Shown one piece after another: positions 30,128-50,349 of a stretch of 64,000 nucleotides of DNA (its first letter is position 1; each line of letters opens with the position of its first letter). The position numbers were made by a program, and so were the translations under genes. The notes below the pieces were generated by a model. The model was not told the DNA's origin, did not search any database, and worked only from the letters and a program-made list of their open reading frames with translations. The stretch comes from Epilithonimonas arachidiradicis (GTDB taxonomy: Bacteria; Bacteroidota; Bacteroidia; Flavobacteriales; Weeksellaceae), in the NCBI RefSeq assembly GCF_003610695.1, contig NZ_RAQH01000002.1, forward strand, positions 186,001 to 250,000. The letters run 5' to 3'.

Positions 30128-30209
30128 CTTCTCGTCAAATCGATAACGAAATATAGATATAATTAACCGTAAAAACAAAAAGATGAGATTAGGAATGATA
30201 TAAGCTAAA

Positions 30210-30292
30210 GTCTTCGACTTCGCTCACACTGACATTTGTTTGAAATAATGTTAAGTATTAGAGTTGTCACACTGAGCGGAGTCGAAGTGTCT
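30210..30292. repeat. facing pair of GAGCGRAGTCGAAG repeats
   Basis: Two copies of the dispersed sequence GTCACACTGAGCGGAGTCGAA (consensus) face each other: 30210-30235 on the minus strand and 30266-30286 on the plus strand, about 30 bp apart, so the RNA could form a long stem. It lies between the T9SS FG-GAP gene and the TPR-LuxR gene. Confidence 0.7.
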
Positions 30293-34704: not shown

Positions 34705-34728
34705 TTTTAGAATTTTATTATTTTGAAT

Positions 34729-34789
34729 GGCTTCGAGAGCCTCAGTCTGACAACTTTTATTAATTAGATGTCACATTGAGTTTGTCGAA
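34729..34789. repeat. facing pair of TCGAAG-type repeats
   Basis: Two diverged copies of the GAGCGGAGTCGAAG repeat face each other (34729-34754 and 34770-34789), giving a hairpin between the ene-reductase gene and the small secreted protein. It is the same arrangement as at 30210-30292. Confidence 0.6.
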
Positions 34790-34806
34790 GTGTTTTATTT
34801 ATAATT

Positions 34807-35272: not shown

Positions 35273-35420
35273 TTGAATCACTCGCAACCTGACTTGAGCG
35301 GAAATCCTTTTTTGCCAACCTCCAAATTCTATCTTAATATGAAATCGTCTGCAAAAAAGATTGACTACGTCGAACCACTTCGTTAGGTTTGGGAGCCCTT
35401 CGACTTCGCTCAGGATAAAC
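35273..35420 (-). repeat. nested hairpin repeat, copy 5, with a TCGAAG-type repeat
   Basis: A perfect 9-bp stem CTTTTTTGC/GCAAAAAAG (35307-35315, 35351-35359) encloses 35 bp of cargo. The stretch 35273-35312 read on the minus strand matches copy 3 (41044-41083) at 36 of 40 positions. The outer sequence CTTCGTTAGGTTTGGGAGCC matches copy 1, and a GAGCGAAGTCGAAG repeat follows at 35397-35420. It occupies most of the 273-bp gene-free gap. Confidence 0.75.
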
Positions 35421-46120: not shown

Positions 46121-46262
46121 TTGGGGCGTATCCCTTTGTAAGATTGGCTTTTTGCAAAAAGCCAATCTTACAAGCGGGCCGTGCTTTCCGCTATATCTTT
46201 TTCTGCCAAGCTTTTGCCAATCCAGAAAAAGGATGCCGCTGCAATCACTTACGCGCTGACGC
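46121..46262 (+). repeat. nested hairpin repeat, copy 4, with 38-bp perfect palindrome
   Basis: Outer GGGGCGTATCCC and ACTTACGCGCTGACGCC enclose two hairpins. The left one (46136-46173) is a perfect 38-bp palindrome, half-site TTGTAAGATTGGCTTTTTG, with no unpaired loop. The right one has stem TCTTTTTCTG/CAGAAAAAGGA and cargo GCCAAGCTTTTGCCAATC. CGCTATATCTTTTT and AAAAAGGATGCCGCT agree with copy 2. It lies in the 370-bp gene-free gap after yidC. Confidence 0.75.
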
Positions 46263-49599: not shown

Positions 49600-50349
49600 T
49601 CAAAACATTTTATCATAATTCCAAGCAGCAACAAAAATTCCGGCAGTTTCAGTTCGTAATCTTTGATTTCCTAATGAAACAGCTTTGATGCCTTTCTCCG
49701 CTAAAATCTGAATTTCTTTATCAGAAAAATCGCCTTCTGGCCCAATCAGGAAAGTAATTTGGTTGCTTGTTGTTGATTGTTGGTTGATGGCATTGTCACG
49801 CGTGTCATCCTGAGCGGAGTCGAACGGTCGAAGCGCATTCAGATTAATTCTTTCCAGATTTTCGTTACAATGTGCCACAAAAGTATTTTCTGGGTTTAGG
49901 TTTTTCATAAAGTCAGAAAATTTGGTCAAATCATTAACTTTTGGAAAATGAAATCTAAGACTTTGCTTCGAAGCAGAAATAGCTTGTTTCCTCAGTTTAT
50001 CAATACTGATATTCTTACGTTCGGTTTTTTCTGTAAGGATAAAACTGATTTCTGAGATGCCCATTTCCACAGCTTTTTCAACAAAAAATTCGATTCGGTC
50101 AATGTTCTTCGTTGGTGCAATCGCGATATGAAGTTTTGGAGAAAAATCAGGAAGATTTTCTTTGATTTCGGAAACGTCTAATGATACTTTTTTACCTTCG
50201 AAAACAAGATTTCCTTTTGCCAGATTTCCATTGCCGTCGGTTACGAAAATCTCTTCGCCTTCTCGCATTCTGAGAACTTTTGTGATGTGCTGTTGTTCAT
50301 CAGAATCAATCATTAAATCAGGGAAAATCTGTCCAAAGAAAAGTTTCAT
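49600..50349 (-). CDS. rsmE: 16S rRNA (uracil1498-N3)-methyltransferase with in-frame repeat insertion
   Basis: A 249-residue RsmE that methylates U1498 of 16S rRNA. It has the N-terminal PUA-like domain (DEQQHITKVLRMREGEEIFV), the RKNISIDKLRKQAISASKQS segment and the SPOUT motifs FLIGPEGDFSDKE and VSLGNQRLRTETAG. Between them about 20 extra residues (RPFDSAQDDTRDNAIN and a Ser/Thr/Gln-rich stretch) replace the usual short linker. The inserted DNA (49804-49824) is a copy of the GAGCGGAGTCGAA dispersed repeat. The motifs on both sides are intact, so the protein is likely functional. Confidence 0.9.
   Translation of the reverse strand: MKLFFGQIFPDLMIDSDEQQHITKVLRMREGEEIFVTDGNGNLAKGNLVFEGKKVSLDVSEIKENLPDFSPKLHIAIAPTKNIDRIEFFVEKAVEMGISEISFILTEKTERKNISIDKLRKQAISASKQSLRFHFPKVNDLTKFSDFMKNLNPENTFVAHCNENLERINLNALRPFDSAQDDTRDNAINQQSTTSNQITFLIGPEGDFSDKEIQILAEKGIKAVSLGNQRLRTETAGIFVAAWNYDKMF
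49804..49824 (+). repeat. dispersed GAGCGGAGTCGAA repeat inside rsmE
   Basis: Matches 30266-30286 at 19 of 21 positions. It is read in frame on the minus strand as FDSAQDD. Confidence 0.75.

Follow-up and report, generated by a model that had tools for sequence, protein, structure and literature searches.

The 16S rRNA m3U1498 methyltransferase RsmE encoded in the window, i.e. the whole stretch of 64,000 nucleotides that was analysed, has an enlarged loop that is read in frame from repeat DNA, and it is highly probable that this loop is a tolerated insertion that has accumulated mutationally. The rsmE gene (49600..50349, minus strand, 249 aa) matches PF04452 (E=6.2e-38) and PF20260 (4.2e-11); its product comprises a PUA-like and a SPOUT methyltransferase domain with the conserved GPEG and LR.ETA motifs, and its best relative in the PDB by sequence and fold is 3kw2 (fold match E=5e-22). 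It shares the fold, the motifs and the domain order of the RsmE family (PDB 3kw2, 4e8b, 5o96), but its loop is longer than that of its relatives, the insert-free ones having 230 aa, which corresponds to a net gain of 19 residues. At this turn, the P. gingivalis protein 3kw2 is also longer, by about 8 residues, and thus the turn is naturally variable. The original prediction of a repeat inside rsmE that is translated in frame as FDSAQDD was upheld, as rsmE is a real gene that is read through the repeat, and the motifs LIGPEGDFS and SLGNQRLRTETA are indeed preserved downstream of it.

An alignment with congeners and other Weeksellaceae indicated that the enlarged loop ALRPFDSAQDDTRDNAINQQSTTSNQI (49756..49836, minus strand, codons 172-198, 27 codons) replaces 8 ancestral codons (DIPNLENY-like). 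The insert is composite. An inner TGTC-tagged, REP-like element TGTCATCCTGAGCGGAGTCGAACGG (49803..49827, plus strand), the stem of which is partly decayed and which is read as FDSAQDD, has an intact counterpart at the corresponding position of E. bovis rsmE. It is nested in the remnants of a second copy, whose left half GTCACGC (49795..49801, plus strand) and right half TCGAAGCGC (49828..49836, plus strand) were recognised from the intact outer element GTCACGCTGAGGTTCTCGAAGCGT in rsmE of E. mollis and E. caeni and from the clean nesting in E. bovis. The remainder of the loop (49756..49789, minus strand) is a degenerate heptamer minisatellite of the ATCAACC type, which is near-perfect in E. mollis (CAACCATCAACCATCAACC). 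The predicted length of the added loop, about 20 residues, was right, but the repeat makes up only about half of the loop and heptamers the rest.

The window is C2:186001-250000 of the genome G000, and the comparison rests on 24 Epilithonimonas genomes; E. mollis, E. caeni, E. hispanica, E. bovis, E. hominis and E. tenax are among the named congeners. The element consensus derived from genomic copies, TGTCA-nnCT-GAG(CGGAG, CTTG, TTTG, GCTC)TCGA-AGnnT, describes a unit of about 25 bp with a TGTC tag, a covarying stem of 5 bp followed by a G.A/A.G mismatch and one G-C pair, and a conserved GAG...TCGA core. Two variable stem positions change pairwise (CA/TG, GT/AC, GG/CC, TC/GA, GA/TC and CG/CG); the covariation score of 0.411 compares with 0.110 +/- 0.037 after shuffling (0 of 500 shuffles) and vanishes when the partner is slid, and 92% of the cells are paired in the true register only. 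Therefore, the hairpin is kept while the sequence of the stem varies. RNA folding of the rsmE segment (z=0.83) and of a single intergenic copy (z=0.90) was not better than that of shuffled sequences, and the nested form of E. bovis gave z=-1.39; an mRNA hairpin at the rsmE copy of the window is thus unsupported.

Close pairs are formed by 26 of the 46 copies found; in all 13 pairs the two copies are inverted, their TGTC tags lie on the inner side, and the start-to-start spacing is regular at 38-54 bases. The element is strongly depleted in genes: only 3 of the 44 copies that were checked against ORFs lie in real genes, with 90% of the DNA in ORFs (binomial p about 4e-37), and 2 of 8 copies are in genes in an unbiased 424-kb sample, 90% of which is ORF (p=3e-5). 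It should be noted that copy counts are underestimates, because copies with diverged cores are undercounted genome-wide. The element is thus short, dispersed, mainly extragenic (41/44 copies) and hairpin-forming, and it works like a REP. Four of its six frames are open and yield the peptides FDSAQDD or LREPQ, STPLSVT, LSGVE and AERSRS. A search of positions 29900-50600 of the window against Rfam found no family at the repeats; the Flavo-1 RNA (RF01705) was detected at 46173-46261 (minus strand) with 48.8 bits, above the gathering score.

In the window, the exact 13-mer GAGCGGAGTCGAA occurs on the plus strand at 30274 and 49812, and with one mismatch on the minus strand at 30213 and 35399. With up to two mismatches there are 4 sites versus 0.75 expected by shuffling, and none of 100 shuffles reached 4; genome-wide, 36 exact copies contrast with 0 for the reversed control. 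The original prediction had placed one and the same repeat in rsmE and at four intergenic sites, 30210, 30266, 34729 and 35397. These coordinates fit the starts of elements, but the identity across the sites was overstated. The first two are full elements that face one another (30209..30234, minus strand, and GTCACACTGAGCGGAGTCGAAGTGT, 30266..30290, plus strand). The third is a member of the family, but with a different loop (GAGGCTCTCGA, 34728..34752, minus strand), and is paired with an element with the loop variant GAGTTTGTCGA (34770..34794, plus strand). The fourth belongs to a sister type (TTTATCCTGAGCGAAGTCGAAGGGCTCCC, 35394..35420, minus strand), which begins TTTATCCTGAG and lacks the GTCA tag. 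The sister type GTTTATCCTGAGYTTGTCGAAGGGCTCCC, likewise without the tag, is also present elsewhere in the window genome (C1:77161, 91390, 249549 and 337521, and C6:73168), and the locus L156 has a GTCA-type element with a nested copy that resembles it.

The three intragenic copies of the window genome are all in frame, and reside in rsmE, in hemD (uroporphyrinogen-III synthase) and in a glycosyltransferase gene. The same element is found in frame at one site near the N-terminus of HemD in six Epilithonimonas genomes (L205, i.e. G000:C1:86563-87255, and L206, L207, L210, L225 and L214), and in L214 a second element is nested in the first; no element was found in the other hemD orthologues where they were readable. 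Against part of the genus, the hemD element can be explained as an 18-nt insertion flanked by GGAAC and GAAGTG. The glycosyltransferase gene (L229, G000:C10:39415-40551) harbours a perfect element, GTCAGACTGAGCGGAGTCGAAGTCT, with zero net length change at the element versus relatives, which looks like a replacement of sequence and not an insertion. Five relatives together contribute about 20 more copies within ORFs of at least 120 aa, some of which are probably spurious ORFs or start regions. Clear intragenic in-frame copies were found in recF, in the genes for a beta-ketoacyl synthase, a copper ATPase and a sigma-54 regulator, and in a macroglobulin-like gene, which has five of them in E. hominis; the names copper ATPase and macroglobulin-like were read from the sequence without a family search. 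The macroglobulin-like genes L324, L257, L271 and L307 encode repeat-derived peptides (STPLSVT and RQAQDD types), five of them in E. hominis.

At the RsmE turn, an insert is present in 13 and absent from 11 of the 24 Epilithonimonas genomes. The 11 insert-free congeners and the outgroups, mainly Chryseobacterium, have LN-DIPNLENY-TFLIGPE or a close variant, while the other 13 are longer between LN and TFLIGPE. As the 8-codon loop is common to these congeners and the outgroups, the long loop has been acquired and the short loop is ancestral, which rules out an ancestral long loop. A loop common to all relatives with different underlying DNA was thus not seen, and neither is the loop specific to one strain, as had been considered, because 13 of the 24 species carry some insert. 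The interpretation that the repeat can create new protein sequence stands insofar as the loop was acquired and its DNA is recognisably repeat, but a role for the new sequence does not follow.

The inserts differ between species. In E. mollis and E. caeni, the intact element lies on the strand opposite to the gene and is followed by heptamers. The E. bovis insert has an intact inner element placed precisely within the loop of the outer one, GTCACGCT[TGTCATCCTGAGCGGAGTCGAAGGA]TCGAAGCG, and then a second inverted element. In the window species and G023 this nest is decayed and accompanied by heptamers; G004 and G015 have a facing pair of elements, and E. hispanica a facing pair in which the first element has a different stem (ATTCT-stem). 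One element each is found in G022 and G013, and only heptamer-type sequence in G011, G019 and G001, with AAGAATCAAGAGTCAA in the latter two. At least four forms of insert with distinct sequences and junctions can thus be told apart (the GCGC-stem element, the ATTCT-stem element of E. hispanica, the heptamers of G011, and AAGAATCAAGAGTCAA of G019 and G001), from which it follows that this turn has acquired inserts on four or more separate occasions. The number of independent insertions is nevertheless uncertain, because the near-identical left junction GCGCTTCGA and stem in E. bovis, the window species, G023, G015 and G022 would also fit one old insertion followed by loss or exchange. Heptamer tracts (CAACYAT)n occur in 23 of 24 congeners; the control with the reversed pattern was uninformative, since reversal of the heptamer yields one of its own rotations. 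Tracts of (CAACTAT)n are common in the genus, for example at G004:C7:798918-798986 and L377, and can land in coding loops, as in rsmE.

The enzyme itself appears to be intact. Across 41 aligned RsmEs, neither the GPEG nor the LRTETA motif varies, and pN/pS of the core is 0.04-0.09 between insert-bearing pairs. Pooled changes numbered 6 synonymous and 12 non-synonymous in the loop versus 129 and 34 in the core (Fisher p=1.2e-4), a result that is indicative, as three species pairs were treated as independent. Judged from these substitutions, the core is under strong purifying selection and the loop is relaxed. In the AlphaFold2 model (mean pLDDT 85), the sole stretch below 50 comprises residues 178-195, and the insert is thus predicted to be a disordered loop on an intact RsmE fold. 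Both lines of analysis are in favour of the earlier proposal that RsmE tolerates an added loop. Most likely, the extra residues would have no function and the enzyme would work normally.

Insert alleles appear to move between species by recombination, because at the rsmE locus the window species and G023 are 93-95% identical in comparison to 81-87% for rpoB, gyrB, hemD and the glycosyltransferase genes, and because E. mollis and E. caeni share an identical run of 32 nt over the insert in a gene that is otherwise roughly 80% identical. The rpoB+gyrB tree separates the window species from G023; thus, the comparison shows in part that the enlarged allele probably passed between these two by homologous recombination. 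A Fitch count on this tree yielded 7 changes in insert state, which is only a guide, because the alleles appear to recombine, and a tree-based count of independent insertions was not relied upon, since the topologies from rpoB+gyrB, from three genes and from rsmE contradict each other. The strong disagreement of the trees of rpoB (L328-L349) and gyrB (L351-L373) with that of rsmE points to frequent homologous exchange among Epilithonimonas species.

The most likely explanation of these results is that the insertion is near-neutral, has been kept because it is in frame and surface-exposed, and has spread partly by interspecies recombination. A mobile-looking, REP-like hairpin element has arrived at a turn of RsmE that immediately precedes the strand running into the conserved GPEG motif; another copy is nested in it, and heptamer repeats are there as well. 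At other places in genes, insertions that were out of frame or fell in structured regions would have been purged, whereas the RsmE turn may accept almost any in-frame sequence, so that repeats would keep accumulating there. The repeated use of the same turn could also reflect a target preference instead of tolerance. Possible, but on the unlikely side, is a single ancient insertion in the Epilithonimonas ancestor followed by loss, or replacement by empty alleles via recombination, without any hot spot. The insert of E. bovis, which branches off first in the three-gene tree, the shared GCGCTTCGA junction and stem, the mobility of rsmE alleles and the disagreement of the rsmE and rpoB+gyrB trees would be in agreement with it. 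However, the empty alleles share the DIP..ENY turn with the outgroups, so that loss needs allele replacement and not deletion, and the four or more forms of insert and the 7 Fitch changes also argue against it. An adaptive insertion, in which the new loop alters activity, partner binding or rRNA contact, is very improbable: the inserts have been retained in 13 of 24 species, but sequence and length of the loop vary freely between species, amino acid changes in it are relaxed, it is disordered in the model, and unrelated repeats occupy the same turn.

With respect to the mover, the inverted pairs of short hairpins are units like those of REPIN/RAYT systems (PMC3116915, PMC2817692, PMC6006769), their spacing is regular, and Y1_Tnp genes above the Pfam cut-off are present in 22 of 24 Epilithonimonas genomes. 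Mobilisation by a RAYT that has since been lost from the window genome is nevertheless improbable, as the window genome and G017 have copies of the element but no Y1_Tnp was found in them, none of 12 sampled RAYT genes of the genus has an element within flanks of up to 1.5 kb on each side, and copy number is uncorrelated with the number of Y1_Tnp genes (rho -0.006). By the same observations, a resident RAYT as the present mover is not supported, and a resident Y1/RAYT transposase is unlikely to act in the window genome today. Copy-replacement into genes by template switching or gene conversion, instead of insertion, is unlikely, albeit a little less so than RAYT mobilisation. It would agree with the glycosyltransferase element, with the replacement of at least 9 ancestral bases in the rsmE loop and with the 32-nt run of E. 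mollis and E. caeni, but no intermediates were found, insertion followed by deletion yields the same outcome, and hemD fits an insertion. A far-reaching combination, i.e. that the RsmE turn is a recurrent landing site for independent additions of TGTC hairpins, nested copies and heptamer satellites in many species and that the TGTC hairpin moves by transposase-independent copy-replacement, is doubtful, about as much as RAYT mobilisation; if it were true, rsmE of Epilithonimonas would record repeat movement, nesting and interspecies exchange.

Among known elements, the CGTC REPs come close. Intragenic GTAG and CGTC REPs are short tagged stem-loops that are mostly intergenic, some being in frame in uvr, rec and other genes, and their dimers encode 20-30 residues (PMC3733652). 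The tag of CGTC REPs may be TGTC or CCTC, and they have no linked transposase, stems of 8-9 bp, CCA-like tails, and dimers mostly with the tags outside (HH) (PMC3733652). The Epilithonimonas element also has a TGTC tag (GTCA is preceded by T in the listed copies), and no linked transposase gene was found when tyrosine transposases were looked at. In contrast, its stem has 5 bp plus G.A mismatches, all 13 pairs have the tags inside, and the stem is followed by mostly T-rich sequence without a CCA tail. An assignment to CGTC REPs with head-to-head dimers was withdrawn, because tags inside the pairs contradict the definition, and as stem length, tag orientation and tail all fail, the element was not assigned to this class. 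It differs from GTAG REP/RAYT systems in its TGTC tag, in the lack of a RAYT in the window genome and in its absence from the surroundings of the 12 genus RAYTs. No paper on the repeat or on its peptides turned up in a literature search, the coverage of which does not extend to most subscription journals.

In-frame palindromic repeats are already known, from the Rickettsia palindromic elements (RPE) and from the GTAG and CGTC REPs, and the Epilithonimonas case clearly adds another example of this kind; what is special about it is that one and the same RsmE loop has grown through different repeats in about half of the species of the genus. RPE, as outlined by Ogata et al. (2000) and in PMC2229807, are palindromic dispersed repeats of 105-146 bp in frame in conserved genes, and an RPE-bearing guanylate kinase is translated and active (PMC2229807, citing Ogata et al. 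and Abergel et al.). Measured against this outline, the element is likewise palindromic, dispersed and in frame within conserved genes, relatives without it being available for rsmE and hemD, but its unit is only about 25 bp, its host is not Rickettsia, and most copies are outside genes. Taken together, the original observation was confirmed in part and needed corrections, and its interpretation is supported once 13 of 24 species, a composite loop and in-frame copies in other genes are taken into account. For annotation, it is of importance that FDSAQDD-, LREPQ-, STPLSVT- and LSGVE-like peptides in Epilithonimonas genomes are repeat-derived and not conserved motifs. In-frame palindromic insertions, best known from Rickettsia, are thereby extended to a genus of Bacteroidota with 24 comparable species, and because sites of the same genes with and without a repeat can be set side by side, it offers a usable natural experiment on how repeats enter proteins, how they are tolerated, and how REP-like elements spread without an identifiable transposase.
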